Shown here: positions 7,652 to 29,708 of the stretch, piece after piece
How positions within the stretch are numbered: the first letter of the stretch is position 1
Layout: each line of letters begins with the position of its first letter
Origin: a virus
Direction: 5' to 3' (one strand)
IMG/VR virus record: IMGVR_UViG_3300046371_000258
Coordinates: 1-29,708 of that record
Length of the DNA: 29,708 bases
Notes under the pieces: generated by a model
Database searches by the model: none
The model's input: the letters and a program-made list of their open reading frames with translations, nothing else
Told to the model about the DNA's origin: nothing
Translations under genes and position numbers: made by a program

Positions 7652-8420
7652 TATATATTTTTACTCCTCTTGCTTTTGCACGAACAAAATGGTGAGAAAC
7701 ATATCCACCAGTTGTATATAAATGTATGTCTTCTGGTTTATGATATAGATTCGCCATATGTAGAAATCCACTATCGATACCAATATGCCCATCTGCTTTT
7801 GCCATAGCATAACCTATTGCTTGTATGCTATCGTTCATATCTGGTATACTTGCTTCGCCACCAACTCTGACTATTTCATATCCTTGTTCTTTATATCTAT
7901 TTTCAATAATATTTATCTCTGCCTCAGGTATGCTTCTACCAGGGTCAGTTGTGTCCCATTGAGCAGTTACAAACTTACTAGGAACAAATACAGCATACTC
8001 TTCTTTTGCTTGAAGTAGTGGATAATCTTTTAATAATAATTCTGAAACATCTAGTGGTAAAGGTATCGATGTTGGTGGGTCATTTGGGTGCATGTCTACA
8101 GTATCTTTATAGTAATACGTTTCTGCATCGTAACCATTTTCTTTTAAGTATGCTAACCACTCATTTTCTGGTAAGTCTTCAACATCATGGTCTTTATATG
8201 TAACAGTATCTGGAAACAAACTAATGATTTCTGGCCAAGATTGTTGCTTTCTTGGTTTATCGTTTTTATCAGCAGTAAGGTGTATTGTCACTTTATCATT
8301 ATGTAACAAACTATAAAGATGACCTAATAGAACACTATGTACTCTATCGCCAAGTCCTGGTGCAGTAAATGGTCTATCACCATTTCGCATACTTTTAGAA
8401 CGTAATGCTAAATGTTTCAT
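7644..8420 (-). CDS. GT-B glycosyltransferase, GT9/heptosyltransferase-like
   Basis: 258 residues. The C-terminal half has the nucleotide-sugar site of the heptosyltransferase family: IGYAMAKADGHIGIDSGFLHMAN (about 202-224), where a conserved GxDSGxxHxA-type motif is clear. The N-terminal GLGDRVHSVLLGHLYSL resembles the acceptor-domain start of GT9 enzymes. It is shorter than bacterial heptosyltransferases (about 320-350 aa). Its start overlaps the cytochrome c stop by 4 nt. It probably builds or decorates an LPS-like or capsule glycan. Confidence 0.75.
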   Translation of the reverse strand: MKHLALRSKSMRNGDRPFTAPGLGDRVHSVLLGHLYSLLHNDKVTIHLTADKNDKPRKQQSWPEIISLFPDTVTYKDHDVEDLPENEWLAYLKENGYDAETYYYKDTVDMHPNDPPTSIPLPLDVSELLLKDYPLLQAKEEYAVFVPSKFVTAQWDTTDPGRSIPEAEINIIENRYKEQGYEIVRVGGEASIPDMNDSIQAIGYAMAKADGHIGIDSGFLHMANLYHKPEDIHLYTTGGYVSHHFVRAKARGVKIYNA

Positions 8421-8851
8421 TGTAAAGTGTCAATGTATGCTTGTATATTCTCCATATCTTGTGTTGATAAGTTTGCGGCCTGTCCCCACATAAGAGCAGA
8501 CTGTGGACCTCTTGTCTCGCCATCTTTATATTGTTGTAACATTTTAACAATAGAAGTACTACCGACTAGTTTAGGGCCGATACCACCTTCTCCTTTCATA
8601 CCATGACACATATTACAGTTTACATACAACTTACTACCTTTATCGGCAGGTGTTTCTGTTTGCATTGCAACTCGTTTTGCTTCCATTTGCTCTGCAAAAG
8701 TTCCGTACTTTTTAGTATACTCTTCGTAACATTCTCCGTAACAACCGTGAACATCTGTATATCCTTTTACTTCTGCGTTCATTATAGTTGTGTATAGTAT
8801 TCCACCAATACCTAATAAACTAACTGATATCATTGCGATACTAAATTTCAT
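8417..8851 (-). CDS. Membrane-anchored c-type cytochrome
   Basis: 144 residues with one N-terminal hydrophobic segment (about 4-24) acting as signal or anchor, a Cys-containing linker (HGCYGECYEEY, C37 and C41), then a class I cytochrome c domain. CNMCH at 79-83 binds haem covalently, GPKLVG at 92-97 follows, and M121 in SALMWGQAANLS is the likely axial ligand. The domain would face the periplasm and needs host Ccm maturation. The linker resembles that of proteobacterial monohaem cytochromes. A methyltransferase gene separates it from the alternative oxidase gene, and its own stop overlaps the GT9-like gene by 4 nt. GGGAGAG precedes the ATG. Confidence 0.92.
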   Translation of the reverse strand: MKFSIAMISVSLLGIGGILYTTIMNAEVKGYTDVHGCYGECYEEYTKKYGTFAEQMEAKRVAMQTETPADKGSKLYVNCNMCHGMKGEGGIGPKLVGSTSIVKMLQQYKDGETRGPQSALMWGQAANLSTQDMENIQAYIDTLQ

Positions 8852-8852
8852 T

Positions 8853-9530
8853 TTATCTCTCCCATTTTACGTAGATTCTTGCACCATCTGGCATAACCTC
8901 TGTTATATTATAATTATGTTTGTTAGCAAATTCAAACTGTTTTGCCACTGTCCATGGATAAAAATTTGGCATTGCTAATAACCCTTTTTGTCTTAATTCT
9001 TTTCTTGATTCACTTAATTCTTTACCTAACTGTCTAAGTGAATCAGTTTCTAATAATTTAGGACTTCTTTTGTAGACATCTTTTAATTTGCCAAAGTGGT
9101 CTGCATTACCTGGATTTAATCTCCAGAATATACTAGACTTCTCTTTCATATGTAGTACTAAGTTTTCTACTTGTTTTGATATCAAGTCTTCACTACCAAA
9201 GTTAATACTACCAAGACAAACTGCAACATCAAATCTTTCATCTGATTTGAAGTCTTCAATTGCAACAACCTCGTCTGCACCAATATCTGTTATGTCGATA
9301 CCATAAACGTTATTAAGATACTGCTTCATTGGTTGTTCGCCACAACCAACATCTAGCACTCTAGCATCTTTGTCAATTTGTGTAGAAAGTCTTTCTGGTC
9401 TTGTCCAACTTATTCTCCACTCGTAGTCTTCTTTTGGTTGTTGCTGTCTGGCAACATCTAACATCTTTTGTGTTTTAGGCCAGACGTGTGTAAAATATTG
9501 TGTTAATTTTTCTCTTTCGTTACTATCCAT
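8853..9530 (-). CDS. Class I SAM methyltransferase-like protein
   Basis: 225 residues from MDSNEREKLTQYF. ARVLDVGCGEQPMKQYL (about 57-73) is a clear SAM-binding motif I; VYGIDITD is motif II; FDVAVCLGSINFGSEDLI is motif IV. The C-terminal half is unrecognised. The start is uncertain: ATGs at 9569 and 9557 would overlap the oxidase gene by over 30 nt, while 9530 has GAAG nearby and only an 8-nt overlap. It lies between alternative oxidase and cytochrome c, but nothing links it to respiration; a glycan or quinone-type substrate are both possible. Confidence 0.82.
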   Translation of the reverse strand: MDSNEREKLTQYFTHVWPKTQKMLDVARQQQPKEDYEWRISWTRPERLSTQIDKDARVLDVGCGEQPMKQYLNNVYGIDITDIGADEVVAIEDFKSDERFDVAVCLGSINFGSEDLISKQVENLVLHMKEKSSIFWRLNPGNADHFGKLKDVYKRSPKLLETDSLRQLGKELSESRKELRQKGLLAMPNFYPWTVAKQFEFANKHNYNITEVMPDGARIYVKWER

Positions 9531-10128
9531 TTTTTCTTCTATATGAGGTATTGCCATCTGCAAGACCATGATTTACTTTACTGTGATGTTCTTCATCTGC
9601 TCTTACTTTCATAATTAAATCTGAAAGTTTAGCAGACTTTTTCATCTTGTAATACTTGATTGCTAATTCTGGTGCTGGTACGTTTTCTACTTCTCCGTTT
9701 TCTACCATTGCTAGATAATCAGTATAACTTCTTACTGCTTCTTCTTCAAAGTAACCAATCATTCTATGAGCAGTTTTATAATCTATCATGTATAAAATCA
9801 TATAGAAAATAAAAAATAATGCTTGAGCAAATAAGACTAAGTATCTTTCAAACCAATTAGGGTTTGCTATCTCAATAAAAAACATTAGATGCATTCTTTC
9901 ATTCTCTGCTTCTGCTAACATTTCACGAATGTCAGGTCCATATCCAGTTTTCATCTTACGCAGACTTTTCATATGTAACCACATACCACCAACCATGCCG
10001 GGAACACCAGCGACTGTTTCTAAGACAACTGCTCTATGTCCATATCTTTTTGCAAAGAAAGTATCTGCAAAAAATCTAAAAAACTTTGTCATTGCCATTG
10101 CTAATGAGTTTCTTATTCTGGTAACCAT
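9523..10128 (-). CDS. aox: Alternative oxidase (ubiquinol oxidase, di-iron)
   Basis: 201 residues covering the whole alternative oxidase core. All four ligand motifs are present: LETVAGVPGM (E37), NERMH (E77, H80), FEEEAVRSYT (E129) and ADEEHH (E179, H182). A hydrophobic stretch (about 96-116, YLVLFAQALFFIFYMILYMID) is the monotopic membrane anchor. The enzyme oxidises quinol and reduces oxygen to water without pumping protons. The related plastid-type oxidase (PTOX) is known in cyanophages. Near a cytochrome c and a TctAC transporter, it suggests control of respiratory electron flow. No key residue is missing, so it should be active. Confidence 0.93.
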   Translation of the reverse strand: MVTRIRNSLAMAMTKFFRFFADTFFAKRYGHRAVVLETVAGVPGMVGGMWLHMKSLRKMKTGYGPDIREMLAEAENERMHLMFFIEIANPNWFERYLVLFAQALFFIFYMILYMIDYKTAHRMIGYFEEEAVRSYTDYLAMVENGEVENVPAPELAIKYYKMKKSAKLSDLIMKVRADEEHHSKVNHGLADGNTSYRRKNG

Positions 10129-10733
10129 AAATACACCTTTACTTGTTTTTCTTCGTATTGCCCGACATGTCTACCGCCAGTGATACTAAAAATATTTTCT
10201 GGATATTCTATTTCTAAAACATCACATATATCGTAAGTGCTTTCACACTCTGTAATATTACTTTGATTATAATAAAGAAAAGTTTGCAGTTCTTGAGATT
10301 CATTCTGAATATTTAAGAACATCATTTCATCATCTATATAATGTTCGTAATTCGGATATGTAATATCCCAACCACCCGCTTCTTTCCACCAATTAAAACA
10401 AAGAATAGGTTCACGATAAACTAACAACATAGGTTGTTTGTGTTCTTTTAGTTGAGATAATTGATATGCAAAATCATGTGATTTTATTATCTTCAACCCT
10501 TTACTATTCTTTTTAAATGGTTTGTCCCATTCTAACCTATTTGTCGAATACGGTTGATTCACTCCAAAGTATTCGCCAAAATGCATAGGTGATTCTTGAC
10601 CCTTTCGAGTATAAGAATTATTTTTTTTATAATCAGAAGTATTTATATCAGGCGAATAATAGAAGTCTCGAACAACACCAGACCATCTACTGCCTGGTGC
10701 TCCTGTGACTAATAAGTATTCGCAATCTATCAT
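10113..10733 (-). CDS. P-loop sulfotransferase-like protein
   Basis: 206 residues. YLLVTGAPGSRWSGVVRDF (GAPGSRWS at 11-18) is a P-loop-like motif resembling the PAPS-binding loop of sulfotransferases. KIIKSHDFAYQL and MLLVYREPILCFNWW resemble the later strand and the 3'-phosphate-binding RxP region of that fold. Weak similarity only; another P-loop kinase is possible. It sits between the TctC/small-membrane-protein pair and the alternative oxidase, and a second protein with a similar start lies on the other side of tctA (13532-14374). Confidence 0.6.
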   Translation of the reverse strand: MIDCEYLLVTGAPGSRWSGVVRDFYYSPDINTSDYKKNNSYTRKGQESPMHFGEYFGVNQPYSTNRLEWDKPFKKNSKGLKIIKSHDFAYQLSQLKEHKQPMLLVYREPILCFNWWKEAGGWDITYPNYEHYIDDEMMFLNIQNESQELQTFLYYNQSNITECESTYDICDVLEIEYPENIFSITGGRHVGQYEEKQVKVYLWLPE

Positions 10734-10945
10734 TTATCCTTGTCTGATATATCGACTTGGGCACCTTCTTCGGGTTCGTTTAGTAATCTGACAGTTGTCC
10801 ACTTCTTGCCTTTCTTTCCTCGGTCTTTAAGATAATCGTACATATTACCAGCACCATCACCTATACCAATTTTATAACCATGATACCATGCACCTCCTAC
10901 GAGTGCAAGGTATACTATTAACGTTATAAATTGTAAGTCTGTCAT
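10730..10945 (-). CDS. Small single-pass membrane protein after TctC
   Basis: 71 residues starting MTDLQFITLIVYLALVGG. The ATG at 10945 overlaps the tctC stop in an ATGA arrangement; a GTG at 10954 is possible but less likely. One N-terminal helix (about 5-23) is followed by a basic region KDRGKKGKKW and an acidic tail. It sits where a TctB subunit could lie but is far shorter than TctB (about 150 aa, four helices) and shows no similarity to it. It could be an accessory subunit or an unrelated phage membrane protein. Confidence 0.75.
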   Translation of the reverse strand: MTDLQFITLIVYLALVGGAWYHGYKIGIGDGAGNMYDYLKDRGKKGKKWTTVRLLNEPEEGAQVDISDKDK

Positions 10946-12099
10946 TGTCCACACACGATAAATGTATTCGGAACAACATCACAAGTGTCTCCGTCTTGTA
11001 CCATTAAACTAGGAGAAGGTTCTCCTATGTCAAAATCATCTTGGTACAACCAAGTCTTTAATACTGATTTTAAGTCAAGTGCCTGCTGGTTCCATTTTAC
11101 AAGAAACATCAAACTGTTTGGATTGATAAAACTCATGAGTTTATCTCTAAATGCATTACCGTCTTCTCCGATAACCCACTCATAGTTTCCAACTTTCTTT
11201 TGAATAATCTCTTTTGACTTAGGGTCTGCATTCATTTTTCGTAATGCTTCTCTTAGATATTCTTTATTAGGGTTATCTTTGTGTACCCATAATGCTTTTT
11301 GTAATCCGTCTCGAAAAGACTTCGCAAGTTTGTATGAGTCATAAAAAATACCTTCGGGTTTCTTACCCCACTTTCTCTCAAACAATATCTCAAACTGTTT
11401 GTTTGGATAGTTAGGGTCATCGACATGATTTCCGTCAGGTGCAAGTAATCCATGCGTAAACCAAACAGTTGCTTGTTTAAATGATTCTACGTGTTTTTTG
11501 TATGCCGCTGGATTCTCACGAGTTACATTTAACTCGCCTCTTTTAAATGCAAGTCTTCGTTCATTACCTTTCATTCCTTTGACCCAAATAACATTTTCTT
11601 CCCACCATGCAATTGCACCGTCTACATCATCAGTAATACCACTTTCTAACATAGTGATTGCCATAGTCTCAGGTACTTGACCTGAACCAAATGCAAAAGA
11701 AATCTTATTACAATGTTCTCCATTGAAGTCTTTACATTTCTGACCAAGTAATCTACCTACAATAATTGTTAGGTTCATAAGACCGATTGACTCATAGTCT
11801 CGGTAATCGTAGTCTACATTCTCTTGTAGAAAAGATATACCATTACCACCGTGTGATACCATGACCATGTCATTGAGTCCTTGATATTCATTGTGGAATT
11901 TATTAAATCCACCTATACCTCTTGCACTTGGTAAATGTAATAGACTGATTTTATCACCGTCTAATTGTTTCTCAAGTTCTTTTGCAACAATAGACGCCCA
12001 TACAGAAGTTCCACCACCTACTTTTTGTGGTATCACAAAAGTAAAGTTTGCAAATGCAAACGATGATGCGAACATCAATAATAATAAAAGTTTCTTCAT
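10942..12099 (-). CDS. tctC: Tripartite tricarboxylate transporter binding protein (TctC/Bug family)
   Basis: 385 residues with a clear signal peptide (MKKLLLLLMFASSFAFA, cleavage near residue 17), so periplasmic. The mature start FTFVIPQKVGGGTSVWA is the Bug/TctC pattern, with the GG[GT]T-type ligand loop; it continues with HLPSARGIGGFNKF and MVSHGGNGISF. It is longer than typical TctC (about 325 aa). This subunit captures an organic acid, possibly a di- or tricarboxylate, and delivers it to TctA. It overlaps the tctA stop by 4 nt (ATGA), so both are translated together. The ligand cannot be named from sequence. Confidence 0.9.
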   Translation of the reverse strand: MKKLLLLLMFASSFAFANFTFVIPQKVGGGTSVWASIVAKELEKQLDGDKISLLHLPSARGIGGFNKFHNEYQGLNDMVMVSHGGNGISFLQENVDYDYRDYESIGLMNLTIIVGRLLGQKCKDFNGEHCNKISFAFGSGQVPETMAITMLESGITDDVDGAIAWWEENVIWVKGMKGNERRLAFKRGELNVTRENPAAYKKHVESFKQATVWFTHGLLAPDGNHVDDPNYPNKQFEILFERKWGKKPEGIFYDSYKLAKSFRDGLQKALWVHKDNPNKEYLREALRKMNADPKSKEIIQKKVGNYEWVIGEDGNAFRDKLMSFINPNSLMFLVKWNQQALDLKSVLKTWLYQDDFDIGEPSPSLMVQDGDTCDVVPNTFIVCGQ

Positions 12100-13538
12100 G
12101 TGTACTCCATAATTGTTTTTTTATTTAGACCATAAATAAGTACTGTGATTATTGCAATACAAAGTACAATAAATAATGGTCTTGTTATTAATATATCCAA
12201 ATTGTATAAAGTTGCCATTTGAATAGATAATCCTTCAATTCTATCACTTAATATAAACCCAATTAATAATGCAGGTCTACTAAACTTTCCATATTTGCAT
12301 ATCAATCCAATAACACTCATGATTGCAAGTATCACGTAATCTTCCCAACCACCAGTATATTGAACTGCAGTCCAAATAACAAGTACCGTGAGAGGTATTG
12401 CATAATACACAAACGGTACCTTTGTAATCCTCGCAATCTGTTTATTACAAGATAAACAAATTATACAGACAAGTATTGTAGCACAAAGAAAACCAAATGT
12501 CAAGTGAAAAATAAACTTCTGGTCTTCTAATAAGTCTGGTGTGCCTAACTCAAAATTTAAATAAGCAAACAGTGCCATAAGCATCGCCGCATACTTTGCC
12601 CCCGGTATACCGAATAGCATTGTCGTTATCATTGATGTTGCTTTCTGAGAATTGTTTGCACCTTCAGGTCCTATAACTCCCTTGATATTGCCTTTACCGA
12701 AAGGTATCTTTTCATTTGGGTGTGTTGCAACTGTTTGTCCATATGCTATCCAATCAGCAATCGCACCACCAAGTCCTGGTAATAAACCAATGACTGCACC
12801 AATGAATCCACCTCTAAGTGATAACCAACGATTCTTCCAGACTTCTACGAATGCTTGTTTTGTTTGCCCTTCATTGTCCCACAAAGTATAGTTTGTAAGT
12901 GCTTTGTTTCTTAACCCTGCAATAATTTCGGGTATTGCAAATAGACCTACTGCAACAGGTACAATCTGCACACTGTCTGCAAGATAATACCAACCGAAAG
13001 TAAATCTATCAGATGCATCATATGGATTGATACCTATCATTCCTAACCAGACACCGAATGCAAGTGCAATCAGTCCACGTACCCACCATTTACTTGATAT
13101 GAAAACAACAAAAGTAAATGCTAGTATTGTAAATGCCCATAATTCTGGTATGCCCATATAAAGAACTATATTCTTATAATATGGTACTAAGAAAAAAGTT
13201 AAACAACCCCATATGAGTCCATTTACTGTAGACGAAATGATTGCAGATGATAGTGCCAGATTTGCTTTACCTTGACGTGCAAGAGGATATCCATCAAGCA
13301 TTGTTGTTGCGGCAGAGTTAGCACCAGGAATATTTAATAACACACTAGCATATGAATCACCTGTTGTTGATGCGGCAACTAGTGCCATACAGAATAGTAC
13401 TGCTAGATATGGGTCAGGAAAAAAGTGAAGAAATGAAAATGTTATTACAAGACCTGTCGTAGCACCAGCAGTTGGGATTATACCTATTAATAAACCATAA
13501 ACTGTGCCTAACAATAATATCGCAATTAGTTCTAACAT
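12096..13538 (-). CDS. tctA: Tripartite tricarboxylate transporter large membrane subunit TctA
   Basis: 480 residues, about 11-12 hydrophobic segments, full family length (about 500). Family hallmarks are present in both repeats: GLLIGIIPTAGATTGL (15-30) and GLLPGLGGAIADWIA (251-265); VLLNIPGANSAATT then DGYPLARQGKANLAL (67-96); FGKGNIKGVIGPEGANNS (280-297); TMLFGIPGAKYAAML (306-320). It imports carboxylates using the ion gradient together with TctC and normally TctB. No TctB is present nearby, so the phage may use the host's or do without it. It overlaps the upstream P-loop gene by 7 nt. Confidence 0.95.
   Translation of the reverse strand: MLELIAILLLGTVYGLLIGIIPTAGATTGLVITFSFLHFFPDPYLAVLFCMALVAASTTGDSYASVLLNIPGANSAATTMLDGYPLARQGKANLALSSAIISSTVNGLIWGCLTFFLVPYYKNIVLYMGIPELWAFTILAFTFVVFISSKWWVRGLIALAFGVWLGMIGINPYDASDRFTFGWYYLADSVQIVPVAVGLFAIPEIIAGLRNKALTNYTLWDNEGQTKQAFVEVWKNRWLSLRGGFIGAVIGLLPGLGGAIADWIAYGQTVATHPNEKIPFGKGNIKGVIGPEGANNSQKATSMITTMLFGIPGAKYAAMLMALFAYLNFELGTPDLLEDQKFIFHLTFGFLCATILVCIICLSCNKQIARITKVPFVYYAIPLTVLVIWTAVQYTGGWEDYVILAIMSVIGLICKYGKFSRPALLIGFILSDRIEGLSIQMATLYNLDILITRPLFIVLCIAIITVLIYGLNKKTIMEYT
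12122..12129 (-). promoter_or_regulatory. Possible late promoter box before tctC
   Basis: TCTAAATA on the minus strand (one mismatch from TATAAATA), 22 nt upstream of the tctC ATG and inside the end of tctA. The spacing resembles that of the plus-strand late promoter at 668. Alone it is weak evidence in such AT-rich DNA. Confidence 0.3.
12475..12503 (-). promoter_or_regulatory. Intragenic sigma70-type promoter inside tctA
   Basis: TTGACA (12503-12498), a 17-nt spacer and TACAAT (12480-12475), within tctA about 375 nt before the tctC start. It has the same CTTGACA extension and spacer as the intergenic promoters, and could give extra tctC mRNA. It may be a coding coincidence. Confidence 0.42.
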
Positions 13539-15832: not shown

Positions 15833-16151
15833 CTTCTAACCTCACTATGTCATCTTCTCCTAAATACTCTCCACTCTGAACTTCAATTACTTTTAATGGT
15901 TCAGAACTTGAGTTTGATAATCTGTGTTTTTGTTTAGCAGGCACATAAGTACTTTCGTTTACATTTAAAGTAAACTCTTCATCTCCAATCTGTACTAACG
16001 CAGTTCCTTCTACTACTACCCAGTGTTCTGACCTATGTCGGTGATATTGCAGTGAAAGTTTTTCGTTAGGATTAACTGTTAAAACTTTTACTTTATAATT
16101 ATTCTGTTCTCGTAAAACTTCAAATGTTCCCCATGGTCTATCTGTAATCAT
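15816..16151 (-). CDS. Mannose-6-phosphate isomerase type II-like cupin
   Basis: 111 residues matching the stand-alone C-terminal cupin of ManC/AlgA-type proteins. RPWGTFEVL (5-13) opens the domain; LSLQYHRHRSEHWVVVEG (33-50) holds metal ligands H37, H39 and probably E42/H43; YVPAKQKHRLSN (69-80) gives H76; VIEVQSGEYLGEDDIVRLED (88-107) closes it. It should interconvert fructose-6-phosphate and mannose-6-phosphate or epimerise a related sugar phosphate, feeding nucleotide-sugar synthesis. Neighbours on both sides are glycan-type enzymes. Confidence 0.92.
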   Translation of the reverse strand: MITDRPWGTFEVLREQNNYKVKVLTVNPNEKLSLQYHRHRSEHWVVVEGTALVQIGDEEFTLNVNESTYVPAKQKHRLSNSSSEPLKVIEVQSGEYLGEDDIVRLEDVYRR

Positions 16152-17097
16152 CTAAATCAAACTCCGTTCCATGCATCTTATATAAATCTCTTTTGTGATT
16201 AGTCCATACCAGAACTTCTGGGTCATCTACCAGAAAGTCACAATCTTTACAATAGTCTGGATAATCTCCAGTTGTGTGTTGTTCTCGTAGTTCAACATAT
16301 GCAGGCCCATTCCATATTTCTTCTATAGTATTTTTACTGGTGTGTCCAAGAACTGCTTCCTCGTCCCGACCAAGAACTTGACAACATGGTGCGACTGCTC
16401 CTCTTTGACCGTCCAACCCGCCTGCACGAATAACAACATCAGGACTGAAAGGACGACCACAAGTATTAATTTTACCGCTTCTTTTATCTTTGTTATCATA
16501 TACTCCACTCCAGTTATGCATTCTCCAGATTTCTGTTTTCACTCCCAGTTCTTCTGTTAGTGCAGTATATTCTTGTAATTCATCAAACTCATTCTCTACG
16601 TCAGTAATCAAATGATAAGTTGCAACTACACAATCACTACCACTTTCTTTGACATACTTTTGCATCTCTTTGATGTTCTTACATATCTTATCGAAATTAC
16701 CACCGACACGATTGTGCATCATTTCATTATATTTATTCTTATCATATCCAATCATTGAGAACCTAAAGAAGTCTAGTCCCGCATCAACACAATCACGCAT
16801 AAATTTACCATGCATTCTAAAACCATTTGAGAAACAGAATGCAAGTGCGTTATACTTCTTGACTATCTTAATATACTCTGGTAGATTTCTTGCAAGAGTG
16901 GGTTCTCCACTTCCTTCTAGATTGACTACTCGTAATCCATGTTTTGCACAATCTTTAACATTATCTTCAAAGTCTAATAGGTTCATCTTCTTGAGAAATC
17001 TTTTATCACGACCACCCGTCCGCATGTCTTGTGGACACATAGTACATGAGTAATTGCAACCCCCATTTACTTCAATGACTGCTCTATCAATCTTCAT
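16138..17097 (-). CDS. Radical SAM enzyme with SPASM domain
   Basis: 319 residues. CNYSCTMC (C14, C18, C21) is the CxxxCxxC site for the SAM-cleaving [4Fe-4S] cluster; VVNLEGSGEPTLA is the glycine-rich SAM motif; the C-terminal cysteines (NTCGRPFSP, APCCQVLG, CKDCDFLV) form a SPASM region for auxiliary clusters. The substrate is unknown: SPASM proteins act on peptides, sugars or cofactors. The place between the cupin and a GT9-like gene suggests a sugar or a glycan-linked step. It overlaps both neighbours by 11-14 nt. Confidence 0.93.
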   Translation of the reverse strand: MKIDRAVIEVNGGCNYSCTMCPQDMRTGGRDKRFLKKMNLLDFEDNVKDCAKHGLRVVNLEGSGEPTLARNLPEYIKIVKKYNALAFCFSNGFRMHGKFMRDCVDAGLDFFRFSMIGYDKNKYNEMMHNRVGGNFDKICKNIKEMQKYVKESGSDCVVATYHLITDVENEFDELQEYTALTEELGVKTEIWRMHNWSGVYDNKDKRSGKINTCGRPFSPDVVIRAGGLDGQRGAVAPCCQVLGRDEEAVLGHTSKNTIEEIWNGPAYVELREQHTTGDYPDYCKDCDFLVDDPEVLVWTNHKRDLYKMHGTEFDLDDYR

Positions 17098-17884
17098 AGT
17101 ACTTAATTAATTTTTTATAATATTCTTTTGCACGATTTTGCATTCCGGTTATTCTTATTGATAAGTCTGAGTTAAACCACTTGAAAAACTTATTTCTACT
17201 TGATAAAAGTTTTACTTGTGGTGTATTTTGTAATGTAACAGATTCTGGCGACTGTATCGCAATTGCTTTTGCAAAGTTCCGTGCAATTCCATGCCACATA
17301 CCTTCGTAACTTATAATATAGTCAGCATTTTGTATTGCTCTATATGCCTCATACACTGGTGTTCGATACGTAAGTTCAGTAACACTACTAATTTCTTCTA
17401 ATTTATATTTGACGTTGTCCCAATCTTCTTTAGACAGTTGTCTTTTCCATACTTTTGGTGGTTCACTATTATGATTTGGCGTCCAAATAACCGCAGAGTT
17501 TTTCTTGTAACTTGGGTTTGGCATTTTTTTAAATACCCAATCACGATATGGATTTATATCTGCATTAGGTTTGTTATCTGGAAATATCCATCGTGTTTTC
17601 TGTTGATAATCTTGTGTGTATGGTATATTGTATTCAAATAAACTTGTATTGAAAACATGAGTCAAACTAACTCTTTCATTTTGATAATATTGTCTATATA
17701 ATCCAGACATTCTTTGAACAATAGTTTCTGGGTCAAGTTCATGTTCTTTGTAATCTTCATCATGATTCCAATGCATTTCTAATTCAACTAGAACATCGTG
17801 TGTATGAGAATAATTATGTGCGACATTTAATGCCATACAAACATCACCCATACCCCAAGTACCTCTCCATTTAAATTGTTTCAA
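17087..17884 (-). CDS. GT9/heptosyltransferase-like glycosyltransferase
   Basis: 265 residues. The N-terminal WRGTWGMGDVCMALNVAHN is the glycine-loop acceptor-side motif; YEAYRAIQNADYIISYEGMW followed by HGIARNFAKAIAIQSP is the nucleotide-sugar site of the C-terminal Rossmann domain, as in GT9 proteins, with E in place of the usual DSG triad (SYEGMWHGIA). The C-terminal end (about 240-265) is basic. It overlaps the carbamoyltransferase stop by 4 nt. Confidence 0.7.
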   Translation of the reverse strand: MKQFKWRGTWGMGDVCMALNVAHNYSHTHDVLVELEMHWNHDEDYKEHELDPETIVQRMSGLYRQYYQNERVSLTHVFNTSLFEYNIPYTQDYQQKTRWIFPDNKPNADINPYRDWVFKKMPNPSYKKNSAVIWTPNHNSEPPKVWKRQLSKEDWDNVKYKLEEISSVTELTYRTPVYEAYRAIQNADYIISYEGMWHGIARNFAKAIAIQSPESVTLQNTPQVKLLSSRNKFFKWFNSDLSIRITGMQNRAKEYYKKLIKYYED

Positions 17885-19464
17885 AATATTCTCACGTTGT
17901 ATTTACTTTGCCATTCTTTGACATCTTGTTCATTATTTAACATAGGTTGACCTTTAATATTTAACGAAGTGTTAAGTAACATTGGCACACCTGTTCGTTC
18001 ATAATATTCTTCTAATATTTGTCTAAGCACACTTTGACAATCTTTCTTTACCACTTGACATCTAGAAGTACCATCAATATGGATAACAGACTTGTAATCG
18101 TGTTTTGCATTACAAGTATATTGCATGTATTCGTTCTTATGTCCGTCAAAGTATTCGTCTGCATATTCCTCTAGTATTGCGGGTGCAAAGGGTCTAAACA
18201 GTTCTCTTTTTTTAATTTTATTTACTGTATCTTTAATATCGTATCTTACATCTCCAAGAAGACTACGATTACCTAATGCACGAGGCCCAAACTCTGCACG
18301 ACCATTTGCAACACCACATACTTTGTTTTTCATTAGATAGTCTACTACTTCTTTTGGATTAATTTTATTTTTTATATCATATCCTAAATATGGTGACCAC
18401 TTTAATCTTTTACCACCAGTTTCTTCTGCCCATGTTTTTGCGGCACACCCTAAAGAACTACCAGCATCACTAGGCGCAATTGCAATATGCACATCGTCAA
18501 ACATATCTCTTATCTTTGAATTAACAATAATGTTTTGGGCGCAACCACCAGAATAAACCAATTTACTTCCATGTTTTCTTGCAGTTCGCATAATTTCTAA
18601 TATCTTGTTTTCTGTAAATTCTTGAACTGATGCCGCAATAACTTTAGCATCATATTCCCAAGAAACATTCCAAAGTCTTTCTATAAACTTATATTCAAAA
18701 TCAGCAATCATTGTCGGAAATCTATAGTATACATTTGAAAGATTCGCTCCCCGGACTTCTCCTGTATTTACTTTTTCTATTGCTTTTTCATTTAAAGTAT
18801 ATTTTAATCTTAAAAATTCTTCTCTTGTATATTGACTAAATGATTCATAATAGTCTGTAAAAAATTGCACTAATTTTTTGTCGGGTTCTGCATATGAAGA
18901 CAAACCCATAACAATATATTCATGTTCTAGTGGTTTATATCCTAAAGTTCTTGTTACGTGACCATAAATTTTACCAATAGATTGTGGGTCATGAACATCA
19001 TCAATAACATTAAAATTAGCATCATAAATTACAGATGTTTGTTCTTCACCAGCACCATCAATCGATACCATAACTATATCATCATTTGTTTTCCATGGAC
19101 AAGTATATAAACTTTGTGCAACGTGTGATTCATGATGCATGTGAGATACATCATATGTCCCTTCTATTTCTTCTGGCACATATCCATAGTTTCCTGCACG
19201 AGTTACGCCTTGACTCATAGATTTCATCTGAGTAGGAAATACGTCTTTACGAATATTGTGTAGTTTACTTCTTGTTCCTATATCTTCATAAAATGAAACA
19301 ACATCATCATCTTTAATGAGTTCCATTAATTGGTATGGTAATCTAGGGTCGTTTTTTACTTTTGTATATCTTTCAGCATGTGCGGCAAATGATACTGAAC
19401 CATCTTCTTCAATGATTGATAGTCCAGCATCATGAAATTGACTTGAAAAACCTACGTATCTCAT
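17881..19464 (-). CDS. Carbamoyltransferase, NodU/CmcH/TobZ family
   Basis: 527 residues, full length for the family. The N-terminal Kae1-like domain has SHMHHESHVAQ (H110, H111, H114) and VSIDGAGEE (D136), the metal site that makes the carbamoyl-adenylate intermediate; GGCAQN and APSDAGSSLGCA follow. The C-terminal YrdC-like part has GRAEFGPRALGNRSLLGD and GVPMLLNTSLNIKGQP. It transfers a carbamoyl group from carbamoyl phosphate to a hydroxyl, usually of a sugar. Such genes occur in cyanophage T4-like genomes. The start overlaps the holin-like gene stop by 4 nt. Confidence 0.95.
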   Translation of the reverse strand: MRYVGFSSQFHDAGLSIIEEDGSVSFAAHAERYTKVKNDPRLPYQLMELIKDDDVVSFYEDIGTRSKLHNIRKDVFPTQMKSMSQGVTRAGNYGYVPEEIEGTYDVSHMHHESHVAQSLYTCPWKTNDDIVMVSIDGAGEEQTSVIYDANFNVIDDVHDPQSIGKIYGHVTRTLGYKPLEHEYIVMGLSSYAEPDKKLVQFFTDYYESFSQYTREEFLRLKYTLNEKAIEKVNTGEVRGANLSNVYYRFPTMIADFEYKFIERLWNVSWEYDAKVIAASVQEFTENKILEIMRTARKHGSKLVYSGGCAQNIIVNSKIRDMFDDVHIAIAPSDAGSSLGCAAKTWAEETGGKRLKWSPYLGYDIKNKINPKEVVDYLMKNKVCGVANGRAEFGPRALGNRSLLGDVRYDIKDTVNKIKKRELFRPFAPAILEEYADEYFDGHKNEYMQYTCNAKHDYKSVIHIDGTSRCQVVKKDCQSVLRQILEEYYERTGVPMLLNTSLNIKGQPMLNNEQDVKEWQSKYNVRIF

Positions 19465-20443: not shown

Positions 20444-20622
20444 GTAACTAATTGAATTAAATAGAAGTTCAATCCCATAAAAAGTATTGTACATACTTGC
20501 AGAATAGATGCAAAAATCACGAACTTTAATGCTCTATCTGCCCACCATTTACCTTCGGTCTCATGCCACTCTTTTATTTGCTCTGGAGTTGCTTCTTTAT
20601 ATCTATGTTGTTTTTTACTCAT
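20440..20622 (-). CDS. Small single-pass membrane protein
   Basis: 60 residues. A charged N-terminus (MSKKQHRYKEATPEQIKEW) precedes one transmembrane helix (about 34-55, FVIFASILQVCTILFMGLNFY). No family recognised. It overlaps the hydroxylase gene upstream by 8 nt, so it is probably translated together with it. Its stop lies under the promoter of the HAD gene. Confidence 0.72.
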   Translation of the reverse strand: MSKKQHRYKEATPEQIKEWHETEGKWWADRALKFVIFASILQVCTILFMGLNFYLIQLVT

Positions 20623-21145
20623 AATAATCTATAACTAAATGTATTCTATCTTTATCAGATGCATTATTTACCGCATGTGTTTTAGAATTATCTATTTCGT
20701 ATGCTCGACCTTCTTTCATATTTACAACATGTCCTGCATTAATAAACAAAACTTTATCATTAGTAACAATTGGTATGTGAATTCTTCTATACAATTTGCC
20801 AATGATTGGGTCTATATGTGGTAAAATTTTTGTATTTTTTTCTAATAAATTAAAAAATATATTAGATATTTTACTTTGGTCTCCGAAGTAATCAAGAATA
20901 GGTTTAAAAAATTCTTCATCATAAAACATATTATATAAATTTGTTTCTTTATTTAAAAATTTAAGAACTATTGCTTTATCAAAACCAACAGGTAAATGTG
21001 CCATATCTTTAAATAGTCCGCTCGACTTTAAAATCATTTTCTCTTGCAATTTATTTAAATAGTTCCAATCTAAATTATCAAATTCATTTTGATAGACAGA
21101 AACATCGATATTAAAATCAAATGTTTTTATAGTCTCATTCTTCAA
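20615..21145 (-). CDS. Aspartyl/asparaginyl beta-hydroxylase-type dioxygenase
   Basis: 176 residues. ILPHIDPIIGKLYRRIHIPI has H110 and D112 as iron ligands and R120/R121 near the substrate site; THAVNNASDKDRIHLVIDYYE gives the distal His (H157) and the 2-oxoglutarate Arg (R167). This order and spacing fit the Asp_Arg_Hydrox (bacterial Asp/Asn beta-hydroxylase) family. The target protein or metabolite is unknown. It overlaps the M15 peptidase gene by 11 nt. Confidence 0.85.
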   Translation of the reverse strand: MKNETIKTFDFNIDVSVYQNEFDNLDWNYLNKLQEKMILKSSGLFKDMAHLPVGFDKAIVLKFLNKETNLYNMFYDEEFFKPILDYFGDQSKISNIFFNLLEKNTKILPHIDPIIGKLYRRIHIPIVTNDKVLFINAGHVVNMKEGRAYEIDNSKTHAVNNASDKDRIHLVIDYYE

Positions 21146-25243: not shown

Positions 25244-25624
25244 CTAGTTTGTTTTAATAATGTGTCTGAATACTTCTGCTGGGTCAGTTGGAATGAAGTG
25301 AGTTTCCTCTAAAGGCAACCATTCTTGTCCAACGTCTTCCGCATCTCTTTTTAATCTATCGTCTAATAACTTAATACAAAGATTAATACCTGTTATTGTT
25401 TTCTCTTTATTTAGATAAACATATTGGTCAATCAACTGACACTCTTTGTAGTTCAAAGGTATCCAATCTTTATAACCCGTTGCGATGTGTTCTAGTTCTA
25501 GATAACAATGTGGTAGTACACAATCTCCACCACCTTGATTAGTACTAACCTTTAACAAAGGAAAATCTTCTATTCTCCAATGTGCAAGATTAGTATTATA
25601 GTTAAAGGGTCTTTGGTAATCCAC
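25244..25624 (-). CDS. Phage hypothetical protein
   Basis: 126 residues, start MDYQRPFNYNTNLAHWRIED. Two Cys and two His (DCVLPHCYLELEHI) lie close together but do not form a known zinc motif. No family recognised. It shares 1 nt with the stop codon of the ArdC-N-like gene, so both are probably translated together as early genes. Confidence 0.75.
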   Translation of the reverse strand: MDYQRPFNYNTNLAHWRIEDFPLLKVSTNQGGGDCVLPHCYLELEHIATGYKDWIPLNYKECQLIDQYVYLNKEKTITGINLCIKLLDDRLKRDAEDVGQEWLPLEETHFIPTDPAEVFRHIIKTN

Positions 25625-25941
25625 TACGCAACCTCTTTAACTGAGTTCAAATAATCAACATTGTCAAGTGCGTTCAAAACAATCTGTTGTTTTGCTTGTT
25701 CTACTGAGAAGACATTAAAGAACCTTCTGACCTTTTCAGTCTCGCCCTTTTCGTTTTCTACTTCTTTAACAAAGAACAAAGTTGCAAACGACTTAAGACC
25801 TTTAAGGTCTTTACCCGAACAACCTAGATATTTAATCATCTGTTTGAAAGTTGCGAACTCTTGACCTTCAACAGCACCATTTACCATAAGAGTATCGAAG
25901 TTAGTACCTGTATACTCTCTTTTACTTATTGCGTTTATCAT
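25624..25941 (-). CDS. ArdC N-terminal-like (ssDNA-binding-like) protein
   Basis: 105 residues. The order YTGTNFDTLMVNG, EFATFKQMIKYLGCSGKDLKG, SFATLFFVKEVENEKGETEK and FFNVFSVEQAKQ parallels the ArdC N-terminal domain of anti-restriction proteins: TFKQ-helix, a K-G turn, then a strand and a F[NS]VEQ motif. This part binds single-stranded DNA in ArdC; the metallopeptidase half is absent. Assignment is by pattern and only moderately sure. It is the first gene after an early-type promoter (25977-26005), where host-takeover genes are expected. Confidence 0.6.
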   Translation of the reverse strand: MINAISKREYTGTNFDTLMVNGAVEGQEFATFKQMIKYLGCSGKDLKGLKSFATLFFVKEVENEKGETEKVRRFFNVFSVEQAKQQIVLNALDNVDYLNSVKEVA

Positions 25942-25976: not shown

Positions 25977-26005
25977 ATGGTACAGGGTTCAACAATTTTT
26001 GTCAA
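25977..26005 (-). promoter_or_regulatory. Sigma70-type promoter for the ArdC-N-like gene set
   Basis: TTGACA (26005-26000), 17 nt, TACCAT (25982-25977), in the gap between the ANL gene and the ArdC-N-like gene. The leader of about 30 nt ends in GAGAGGTAAATA before the ATG at 25941. The -10 box is weaker than at the other promoters. Confidence 0.68.
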
Positions 26006-27233
26006 GTCTTTTTTTCACATTTTTTATATGTCCACGTAATTGTTCCATATTAATTTTAGTATCATAAAAGAAATCATATAGGTTTATAGGTTCTGGACAT
26101 GATTTAACTAATTCATCTAAACGAATTGAATTATCTACTCTACCTTTCAATATATATTTACCATCAACTATTTCTAATATATCGTCCATAGCACGTCTTT
26201 CAGACCACATAGGGGTGTTTACAGATACGTGACCAGTGGGTGATACGTCTATGTCATAAAAATCGTCTGGAGCGACTCCTAGAGAGTCTGGAGTGTGTTC
26301 TGAGTCACTATCAATATAATTCACTAATAATGGAATTGCAGTGTCTACACTACCGTAATGTGAAATAAACTCTACGTTGTATTTTTTACACATATCTACA
26401 TGTTTTTGTGTCATTGCAAATCCACACATAACTAATGTTGTGAGTTCTTTTAGTCCACCATTTTTCTCAAAGAATTCAATAAACCAGTCTAACATCTTTT
26501 CGTTTGGTATCATTACATGATTAAAATCCATCAAATGAAGATTTGCGCCTTGCCATTTAGTAAATTCTGCTAAAGTAAACGACCTATGTTTTTTAACTAC
26601 CATAAGTGATGGTAAAAGTGTACACAACATTGCACTAATATGGTGCATATTTTTACTATGTAAAATCTTTGTATCTGGTTTTAATTTAAAGACATCAATA
26701 TTTCTTTTTGCTATTGCGTATATTTCTTTGTGTGTAAATTCAACTTTACGAGAAGGTTTAGTAGAACCAGAAGTAGAACTAATCATAAAAATATCATCTT
26801 CTGATACTTCACTAATGTAGTCCATACCTGTTGGTACTTTTAATTTAAGTTCTCGTGCATCAATTAGTTCTTTACTATATTCACGAATCATCTTGCCATG
26901 TAGACCACCATAAAGGTCATCGCCTGAAAAATTTTCATGAATCAAATAATCAACAGGACCATGAAGTGCAATTTTTGTATAAGGTAAAGACTCTTCTGTT
27001 GCTGGAGCATCAATCAAAAATATTTTTAGACCTAACTCGGCACATGCAATAATAGATGTTAAATGTAAATGATTTACATCTAGAATACCAATAGCAATTG
27101 TTTCTCCTTTACGAACATTGTAGTTCTCTTTGAGTAACATTTTCCATTGTCTTATTTCATAGATAAGGTCCGCTTTTGATTTATTATCATCAAAATCTAT
27201 TTCATCATTAATAATGTCACGACTAATTATCAT
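25989..27233 (-). CDS. AMP-forming ligase of the ANL superfamily, short form
   Basis: 414 residues. STSGSTKPSR (153-162) is the A3 P-loop that binds ATP phosphate; SHYGSVDTA (291-299) corresponds to A5 (YGxTE); GRVDNSIRL (364-372) to A8. Only about 40 residues follow, so most of the mobile C-terminal subdomain with the A10 lysine is missing (family about 500 aa or more). It would activate a carboxylic acid as acyl-AMP if active. The N-terminus MIISRDIIND nearly repeats that of the gene upstream, with which it shares 1 nt: the two are tandem paralogues. Confidence 0.82.
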   Translation of the reverse strand: MIISRDIINDEIDFDDNKSKADLIYEIRQWKMLLKENYNVRKGETIAIGILDVNHLHLTSIIACAELGLKIFLIDAPATEESLPYTKIALHGPVDYLIHENFSGDDLYGGLHGKMIREYSKELIDARELKLKVPTGMDYISEVSEDDIFMISSTSGSTKPSRKVEFTHKEIYAIAKRNIDVFKLKPDTKILHSKNMHHISAMLCTLLPSLMVVKKHRSFTLAEFTKWQGANLHLMDFNHVMIPNEKMLDWFIEFFEKNGGLKELTTLVMCGFAMTQKHVDMCKKYNVEFISHYGSVDTAIPLLVNYIDSDSEHTPDSLGVAPDDFYDIDVSPTGHVSVNTPMWSERRAMDDILEIVDGKYILKGRVDNSIRLDELVKSCPEPINLYDFFYDTKINMEQLRGHIKNVKKRLDKNC

Positions 27234-28240
27234 TATCCAACAAACTTACCTGTTTCTATGTCAACACCAGCATCATCTACTACTCTAGTTTTAGAACTAA
27301 TTTCTTGTTTACCGACATTGTATAAAACTTCATGTGTAAAAGGTTCTGTAAGTTTACTTTTAAAAAACTCAAGTGATTCTGGGTCAGGAAATAGTATTCT
27401 TTCTATTTCATGTTCACGAACTGCCTTAACTGCATAGTCTGTAACGTATTCGTAAATAAATGCTTCTTCAGGACGTTCAGTGTGGTCCATTAACGTGACA
27501 TCGAATATTTCTTCACAATTCATTAGTGCTGGTAAAAAGTAGTAATCAATACATCTATTGTGATGAATTGTTCTAGACATTGCACATTTTTTGTAAGGAA
27601 ACGAGTATTGTTTTACAGACTCGATAATTTGTTTGTGTGTAAAATAATCAGGGTGCCACCATTCATCAATTTCTTTTATGTCCATGCATGGGTCAATAGA
27701 CATAACTGCAGACGAATCTTCACTCACTTCCCAAGGTTGAATAGGTGTGCCAGGATATGGTGCAACATCGTCCATCAACATAACATTGTCTGTGCCTTGT
27801 TCGTTTTCCCAATGATTATATAAATTTATTACATCAGCATAAAGACCATCTTTTAAATCCATACGAGTCAAACCACCTGAGTTGTTTGGGTCTAATGGTT
27901 TATTTAAATCATGTACACAAAATTCTTGATAACCACGAAAGGACTTACTGATAGTGGTAATCATATGTTCGACAGCATCTAACATGTGTTTTGCATCTTT
28001 TCTTGTTTTTAATATTCTATCTGAGCAGGTAATAACTTTCATACCAAGTTCCCATGCCGCAAACAAGGCCGCATAATAATCACTTGGACAATTTAATGTT
28101 GTGACACTAATACTATCATGTTGTTTCATGCCTCTGTCAAGAAACATGTGTTTGAATTTGTTAATTCTCTGACATATTTTTTCATATGTCATGCCATTTA
28201 TGATAATATTAGGATTTATCAGTTCTCTTGAAATAATCAT
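27233..28240 (-). CDS. ANL-like paralogue without ATP motif (probable pseudo-enzyme)
   Basis: 335 residues, start MIISRELINPNIIING with AAGGAGATGAAGA upstream. It aligns with its neighbour over the N-terminal 240 residues: MIISR start, AAWELGMKVI against CAELGLKIF, VSEDSSAVM against VSEDDIFMI, and FTHKQII against FTHKEIY. The expected P-loop (STSGSTKPSR in the neighbour) is replaced by SIDPCMDIKEIDEWWH, so ATP binding of the usual kind is unlikely. It ends before the A8 region. It may be a regulatory or structural partner of the active copy, or have a changed function. Confidence 0.72.
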   Translation of the reverse strand: MIISRELINPNIIINGMTYEKICQRINKFKHMFLDRGMKQHDSISVTTLNCPSDYYAALFAAWELGMKVITCSDRILKTRKDAKHMLDAVEHMITTISKSFRGYQEFCVHDLNKPLDPNNSGGLTRMDLKDGLYADVINLYNHWENEQGTDNVMLMDDVAPYPGTPIQPWEVSEDSSAVMSIDPCMDIKEIDEWWHPDYFTHKQIIESVKQYSFPYKKCAMSRTIHHNRCIDYYFLPALMNCEEIFDVTLMDHTERPEEAFIYEYVTDYAVKAVREHEIERILFPDPESLEFFKSKLTEPFTHEVLYNVGKQEISSKTRVVDDAGVDIETGKFVG

Positions 28241-28649
28241 TCTTCATCTCCTTAATAAACTTAGAATGTATCTTACAACCAATAAACTCATTGAAATAGT
28301 CGTTTCTCAATAGAACATCATTTTCAAATTGAAGTTTTGCTTCGTAGTAAGAACACTCACCTTTTGTTCGACATAATTGTAATATTTTTCTAGTAAACTT
28401 AAATCCTTGCTCTGCAAGTTGTTTTACTTCTGCAGAAGAACCATGGTATGTTTTCCAGTCTGACTGAACTCTGGTTATGATTTTACGTTTTCTTGATTTA
28501 TTTTTAGGTAGAACTTTCTTTTTCCAAAAGAATTTCTTACCTATATATTTCATACCAGTTTCAAGTTCTGTTACTTCGTAGACAAAACCTTGATAGTTCT
28601 CAAGGTCTTCTTCACTCATATTAAATGGTTCATCATTATAATACCACAT
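28209..28649 (-). CDS. GIY-YIG-like endonuclease
   Basis: 146 residues. GFVYEVTELETGMKYIGKKFFW (GFVY at 21-24, YIG at 35-37) is the GIY-YIG start; SDWKTYHGSSAEV and ECSYYEAKLQFE (E103) are the later motif of the phage subgroup that includes free-standing homing-type endonucleases of T4-like phages. There is no Shine-Dalgarno; AATAAATA lies 9 nt before the ATG. It overlaps the ANL-like gene by 32 nt. Confidence 0.85.
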   Translation of the reverse strand: MWYYNDEPFNMSEEDLENYQGFVYEVTELETGMKYIGKKFFWKKKVLPKNKSRKRKIITRVQSDWKTYHGSSAEVKQLAEQGFKFTRKILQLCRTKGECSYYEAKLQFENDVLLRNDYFNEFIGCKIHSKFIKEMKNDYFKRTDKS

Positions 28650-29336: not shown

Positions 29337-29708
29337 CTAACAACCCACATTTGCAACTAAATCATCTAGTTTATCTTCAATTCTTTCGAGTTGTTGTGGT
29401 TCGTCCACATTCTCCCAACCCCAATCGCCTTCTAGACCATTGACAGAATACTCCGTAACTCTCTTTTCAAAGAAGTTATCGTGTGATGCACCATTGAGTA
29501 CCCAATCTAACCACGGTAGTGGATTGTCTTTTGCTTTAAAGTTTGGTTTCATGCCAAGTTGTAATAATCTTCGGTCTGCGATGTGTCTGATATATTGCTT
29601 AACATCTTCTTTCTTAAGACCTTCTATTTCATGGTCATTATAAGCAAGGTCAATAAACTTATCTTCTAACTTAACTACATCTTTTGCAATCTGATAGATT
29701 TTAGATTT
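29337..29708 (-). CDS. nrdB: Ribonucleotide reductase small subunit NrdB, C-terminal part
   Basis: Open reading frame running off the right edge; 123 C-terminal residues are visible. QYIRHIADRRLLQLG then NPLPWLDWVLNG and NFFEKRVTEYS is the conserved C-terminal helix region of class I ribonucleotide reductase beta subunits, which make deoxynucleotides with the NrdA partner. The final residues (VANVGC) form the tail that docks to NrdA. The metal and tyrosyl site lies upstream, outside the window. An internal Met at 29552 is not the start. Confidence 0.92.
   Translation of the reverse strand, partial: KSKIYQIAKDVVKLEDKFIDLAYNDHEIEGLKKEDVKQYIRHIADRRLLQLGMKPNFKAKDNPLPWLDWVLNGASHDNFFEKRVTEYSVNGLEGDWGWENVDEPQQLERIEDKLDDLVANVGC

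Follow-up and report, generated by a model that had tools for sequence, protein, structure and literature searches.

The question raised by this locus is what a phage might do with two adjacent homologues of adenylate-forming (ANL) enzymes, one of which has lost the loop expected to bind ATP. The window, by which we mean the whole stretch of marine virus DNA analysed here (29,708 bases), carries the two genes on the minus strand, head to tail, with that for protein B (27233-28240) ahead of that for protein A (25989-27233), in the following setting.

27236..28240, minus strand: open reading frame B, 335 aa, translated first, a predicted N-terminal ANL-like pseudoenzyme; stop codon at 27233-27235
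25992..27233, minus strand: open reading frame A, 414 aa, a predicted compact ANL enzyme with a truncated C-terminal lid; stop codon at 25989-25991
27231..27235, minus strand: TAATG, in which the stop of B overlaps the start of A, as read from the sequence; translational coupling is expected
28209..28649, minus strand: SegE-like GIY-YIG gene directly upstream of B (PF19835, 6.4e-33), a syntenic anchor
29337..29708, minus strand: end of nrdB (ribonucleotide reductase small subunit), named from its sequence, a syntenic anchor

Overlaps of 14-20 nt occur at other B-A junctions, in sibling clades. As far as each of the 14 contigs compared reaches, the gene order is nrdA-nrdB-(2OG oxygenase)-segE-(B)-A, followed 3' of A by a DUF6433 gene, phoH, a HAD-like gene and a carbamoyltransferase; the segE-like gene keeps its place in 14/14 contigs and the nrdB cluster (C0) was likewise found in all of them. 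Two groups of paired loci, in which B lies next to A wherever flanking DNA suffices, are referred to below as pair clade I (the window and its siblings, 82-100% identical) and pair clade II (L026-L042; A about 57%, B about 41%). In both, a small protein resembling the ArdC N-terminal domain is encoded shortly downstream of A (25624-25941, minus strand; PF08401, 6.5e-5). In L057 (7388-8005), and with members of the same cluster in L053 and L056, a PP-loop-like gene (SGGVES) stands between segE and A; its sequence resembles QueC-type ATP pyrophosphatases, and it has no confident Pfam match.

A and B are homologous members of the ANL superfamily, as judged by sequence comparison. BLASTP aligns them at 24% identity over 267 positions (E 1e-5), profile-profile alignment with hhalign spans 272 columns at a probability of 98.5% (E 1.9e-15), and both match the AMP-binding family PF00501: A over residues 37-320 at 3.7e-7 and 29.7 bits against a cut-off of 29.9 (by-frame score, 31 bits), a cut-off exceeded by the relatives L048 and L049, and B weakly, at 1.6e-4, within residues 17-89. 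The AA-adenyl-dom profile also matches A (4.6e-7). AlphaFold2 models of A and B are poor (mean pLDDT 38 and 43, from alignments of 12 and 15 sequences); when either weak model is searched with Foldseek, the top PDB matches are mainly ANL enzymes, MenE first, under a score that takes in amino-acid similarity and is thus not independent of sequence. The initial annotation, which had placed two ANL paralogues at these positions, is confirmed by the BLASTP, hhalign and PF00501 matches. It had also pointed to a common MIISR start, for which the R-x-[IL]-I-N block is indeed homologous but the likeness is partly chance, sibling A proteins starting with MMSENKISR or SRLINR.

The anatomy of B was followed through 28 distinct B proteins of 305-372 aa from IMG/VR, and its main features in the window are these.

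27653..27700, minus strand: B residues 181-196, SIDPCMDIKEIDEWWH, at the site expected for the A3 P-loop from the alignment with A
27842..27892, minus strand: B residues 117-133, the conserved B-specific motif DPNNSGGLTRMDLKDGL, which diverges in other B groups
27725..27739, minus strand: B residues 168-172, QPWEV, just ahead of the lost P-loop; QPW is invariant in one B alignment
27560..27565, minus strand: B residues 226-227, His-His, the HH of the A4 region, kept despite the lost ATP site

A TSG core occurs in 0/28 of these proteins, as does any P-loop or A5, and the proposal that SIDPCMDIKEIDEWWH occupies the P-loop position in B is borne out. B had further been said to stop before A8. That motif is indeed absent, but the end comes earlier, ahead of A5, so that A5, A7, A8 and A10 are all missing. 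Other elements are well kept: QPW or HPW in 26/28, the A4-region HH in 27/28, and DPNNSGGLTRMDLKDGL almost without change in the B proteins of pair clades I and II despite about 40% overall identity. DIQPWE is also present in the single A protein of L048. B is almost certainly a functional pseudoenzyme paralogue. As a separate observation, the last about 110 residues are near-identical among the B proteins of L005, L012, L018 and the window, which are only about 87-89% identical overall; this near-identical C-terminal third suggests, at the level of sequence, recombination within the gene.

For A, conservation was counted over 38 distinct complete proteins (385-445 aa) from IMG/VR marine phage contigs.

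26745..26780, minus strand: A residues 152-163, SSTSGSTKPSRK, the A3 P-loop, with its TSG[ST]T core kept and its GxPKG half altered
26340..26360, minus strand: A residues 292-298, HYGSVDT, an A5-like motif
26181..26186, minus strand: A residues 350-351, DD, with an A7-like aspartate; GD in relatives
26133..26144, minus strand: A residues 364-367, GRVD, a remnant of the A8 hinge by alignment; lost in L063, L071 and L073
26034..26063, minus strand: A residues 391-400, DTKINMEQLR, an invariant tail (Lys393), candidate stand-in for motif A10

The TSG[ST]T core is present in 38/38 A proteins and the GxPK half is mostly replaced, KPSRK standing in the window where GxPKG would be canonical. The A5-like motif, H[YF]G[ST][IV][DE]T in all 38, keeps the acid of the consensus YGxTE but not its Thr, and D351 is invariant in an alignment of 16 proteins that includes the full-length protein of L049. 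Of A8, window A retains the hinge KGRVD only, and a GRxD hinge is present in just part of the family. Beyond this remnant follow about 40-50 residues, compared with about 110-130 in E. coli ANL enzymes. The initial annotation had credited A with motifs A3, A5 and A8, which stands for the TSGST half of the P-loop, the A5-like motif and the KGRVD hinge, but not for the GxPKG half (KPSRK), a consensus A5 (HYGSVDT instead of YGxTE) or the A8 loop, which is gone. Its statement that both proteins lack most of the C-terminal domain is upheld, the lid of A being almost entirely absent.

The short tail that remains in A is itself conserved, as DTK[ILV][ND]x[ED]QLR, in 38/38 proteins. MAFFT places its lysine on the A10 motif of EntE, FadD and MenE, and its spacing, K-h-x4-L-R, is that of the A10 consensus GKI-x3-ELR. 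With the tail lysine on A10, the likeness is not significant by a position-specific BLOSUM score (shuffle p 0.006-0.19; eight reference sequences, a small set): the tail reaches 3-7 where true A10 motifs reach 10-22, and unrelated tails do equally well. An equivalence of this tail to A10 is a hypothesis, at slightly less than an even chance.

The lid of an ANL enzyme takes part in adenylation through its A10 lysine and in thiolation through its A8 side (PMC11253843; PMC8388817). Because A keeps the ATP-site elements of the N-terminal domain and has no A8 loop, acyl-AMP formation without CoA chemistry is predicted: A would probably adenylate, forming acyl-AMP from ATP and a carboxylic (or amino) acid. 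The lid, of roughly 110 residues and with the A8 loop by which the thioesterification site is normally built, is almost gone, and given this loss A is not expected to be an ordinary acyl-CoA ligase; the invariant tail might fold back and supply the lysine that normally comes from A10, and the acyl group would then pass from acyl-AMP to an acceptor other than CoA. B, which through the overlapping frames would be made together with A, is probably its non-catalytic partner, either as a stabilising or activating subunit or as a dock for acceptor or substrate. Taken as a whole, the proposal that A is a compact adenylating enzyme and B its non-catalytic paralogue partner has, in our estimation, an even chance of being right. 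The fully specified version, i.e., a minimal-lid A with an A10-lysine tail, in a heteromer with B, passing the acyl group straight from acyl-AMP, without CoA, to a phage or host target, is rather doubtful. None of the genes next to the A/B pair was recognised as coding for a carrier protein, an acyltransferase or any other obvious acceptor, and the neighbouring 2OG oxygenase, SegE, ArdC-N-like and PhoH genes give no clear hint of the substrate.

The same anatomy can be read as that of two pseudoenzymes, with A using its surviving P-loop core to bind a nucleotide or an acyl-AMP-like ligand without activating acids, and with the pair serving as a scaffold, a sensor or a module for interaction with the host. 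A has neither the A8 loop nor the A10 region in canonical form, both its P-loop and its A5 depart from consensus, the A10 test is not significant and the ATP site of B is wholly lost; with the second half of its P-loop and its A5 consensus altered, A may be inactive too. We nevertheless consider this reading unlikely, since TSG[ST]T, H[YF]G[ST][IV][DE]T and the invariant tail lysine persist in 38/38 A proteins across deep divergence, and none of the 16 aligned proteins departs from the A7 Asp, a pattern that fits a working active site.

The proposal of a working pair gains from how the two families are distributed. Both were recovered from many IMG/VR marine phage contigs; no relatives of either were found among the cultured phages of INPHARED, nor among the cellular genomes of GTDB at one genome per species with a pattern-based search that distant relatives could escape, and phage ANL pairs were not found described in the open-access literature. 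Beyond pair clades I and II, a diverged B lies upstream of A in L061, L062 and L073, the order is swapped, with B downstream of A, in L063-L066 and L117-L121, and the two genes are about 8 kb apart within one contig in G017-G020; their spacing ranges from overlapping through about 0.8 kb to about 8 kb. Whatever the gene order, no B-bearing record with enough sequence is without A: where no A is visible, the record ends at or near B (L018, L042, L113, L127) or is a fragment (L136, L137). The pair, sought in other phages, co-occurs across deep phage clades, and the outcome that the initial annotation had held against its own reading, a pair that never recurs elsewhere, was not found. A catalytic and a pseudo-enzyme paralogue paired in a phage, as it had proposed, is well supported as a prediction by motif conservation and co-occurrence; the heteromeric acid-activating system that it went on to suggest is a candidate reading.

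That B is conserved without an ATP site and restricted to A-bearing genomes argues for a partner role, and its confinement to A-bearing viruses suggests that A and B work as a pair; a physical A-B complex seems slightly more probable than not. Not every lineage requires B, as several phages have A alone (L043-L048, L050-L059, L069-L072, L074 and L075 carry A with no detectable B). On this could be built a different reading, in which A alone is a minimal acyl-adenylate synthetase and B does a separate job, for instance as a binder of the acid, of a glycan or of a host protein, the two being linked solely through shared origin and position; many contigs with A and without B, among them the 116 kb G001 and the 148 kb G003, are compatible with it. 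It is nonetheless quite improbable, because B is never without A in sufficient records, including those where about 8 kb separates the genes or their order is swapped, and because several B-less phages have a longer ANL homologue, as though a second partner with the ANL fold were called for.

These longer, divergent homologues in B-less phages form a clade of their own outside A+B (support 100/98) and differ in how much of the ATP site they keep. In G001 and G003 the protein has 483-489 aa, is encoded elsewhere in the genome near a ThyX-like gene and a pair of genes that match DUF6071 weakly, and has a degraded P-loop and HH (YSDG and MHCM in G001). Second homologues of this kind (483-489 aa), in phages with A and without B, lie at these positions.

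L105, 5197-6645, plus strand: second ANL homologue with degraded P-loop and HH
L106, 4876-6342, minus strand: second ANL homologue with degraded P-loop and HH

In G007, G009 and G010 a 472 aa homologue retains THTSGYSG. The 337 kb contig L049 encodes a 508-aa ANL homologue with a full C-terminal domain, within an operon (7908-12179) that joins this full-length ligase to a TctC receptor and the alpha and beta subunits of a Rieske ring-hydroxylating dioxygenase, looking, from its sequences, like aromatic-acid catabolism on a jumbo phage.

The L049 operon, typical of aromatic-acid use and carrying a distant full-length relative of A, could be taken to favour an ordinary host-derived acyl-CoA ligase (of MenE, FadD or aryl-CoA type) kept as an auxiliary metabolic gene, the more so as menE and FadD types are the best curated profile matches of A. 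Such a role for A is very improbable: the match to TIGR01923 menE (3.5e-9) reaches 36 bits, far under the cut-off of 330.15, the CoA side of the lid is missing, A belongs to a phage-only clade, and at the sensitivity used the collection of cellular genomes yielded no relatives.

In the trees, the phage ANL proteins described here form one clade apart from the E. coli ANL enzymes (100/99), within which B is monophyletic (99/97), A is monophyletic (87/75) and the two are sisters (96/95), with broadly congruent subtrees; long branches leave the deepest order unsure. The monophyly and sister relationship of the families imply an old duplication, and by sequence B and A stem from one ancient duplication, not from a recent tandem copy. 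Purifying selection acts on both families, dN/dS being 0.08-0.35 in A and 0.16-0.51 in B, and B evolves faster than A. L048, whose single protein combines DIQPWE with an intact P-loop core, was considered as an unduplicated ancestor and rejected, since the trees place it inside the A clade; B was therefore lost or replaced there, and the common features are retained ancestral ones. Decay of a recent tandem duplicate, which the tandem placement, overlapping frames and faster evolution of B might suggest, is refuted in substance by an ancient B clade with 28 distinct copies all open, the dN/dS of B, a conserved motif of its own (DPNNSGGLTRMDLK) and copies lying apart from A, and is scarcely credible.

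Known systems resemble a pair composed of an adenylating A and a partner B in part. Like MenE and FadD, A has the N-terminal fold, the TSG[ST]T core, the A4-region HH, a YG-type A5 and a remnant of the GR hinge; unlike them, it has no C-terminal lid, A8 loop or canonical GK A10, and the second half of its P-loop is altered. The adenylation domains of NRPSs and free-standing acyl-AMP ligases would have their chemistry in common with A, the formation of acyl-AMP by means of an A10 lysine (PMC11253843), whereas A has no Asub domain and no carrier protein recognised adjoining the pair. In the way it might work, A/B recalls trypanosomal AdoMetDC and its prozyme, an enzyme and an inactive paralogue of common origin (PMC5201418), although fold and organism are unrelated. 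The phenylacetate-CoA ligase PaaK1 is an ANL enzyme whose N-terminal-domain dimerisation is described as necessary; it is a single-gene dimer with a conserved A10 lysine (PMC8388817), whereas A/B would be an enzyme with a motif-less paralogue. Among the top viral Foldseek matches of A are two phage ANL homologues in BFVD from uncultured Caudovirales (A0A6J5L571 and A0A6J7WHT9), annotated automatically as 'AMP-dependent synthetase/ligase'.

Catalysis by ANL enzymes is thought to depend on a mobile C-terminal lid, swinging from one half-reaction to the other. A natural family that is nearly lidless yet preserves much of the adenylation site would test how minimal an adenylating machine can be, and a conserved pseudoenzyme partner, if real, would be a new viral pair of enzyme and dead paralogue, with a phylogeny that clearly shows both paired and B-less states. 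If the proposal is true, a group of T4-like marine phages uses a syntenic locus beside ribonucleotide reductase to activate an organic acid, and this activation could serve virion, DNA, glycan or host modification.

At 10945-13538 on the minus strand, the window also encodes a TctA membrane protein of a tripartite tricarboxylate transporter (PF01970, 3.7e-93) with, beside it, a TctC-like binding protein named from its sequence (no Pfam match at 0.01); together they would form a phage carboxylate importer, a possible source of the acid used by A. An open reading frame at 1049-2188 on the plus strand was considered as kin of A and rejected (E 0.59). Respiratory genes are present on this marine phage DNA as well, namely those for an alternative oxidase (9526-10128, minus strand; PF01786, 1.2e-69) and, not far from it, a cytochrome c (8420-8851, minus strand; PF00034). 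A NodU-type carbamoyltransferase (17884-19464), a radical SAM/SPASM protein (16141-17097) and an aspartyl/asparaginyl beta-hydroxylase-like gene (20618-21145), all on the minus strand, are adjoined by several glycosyltransferase-like genes.
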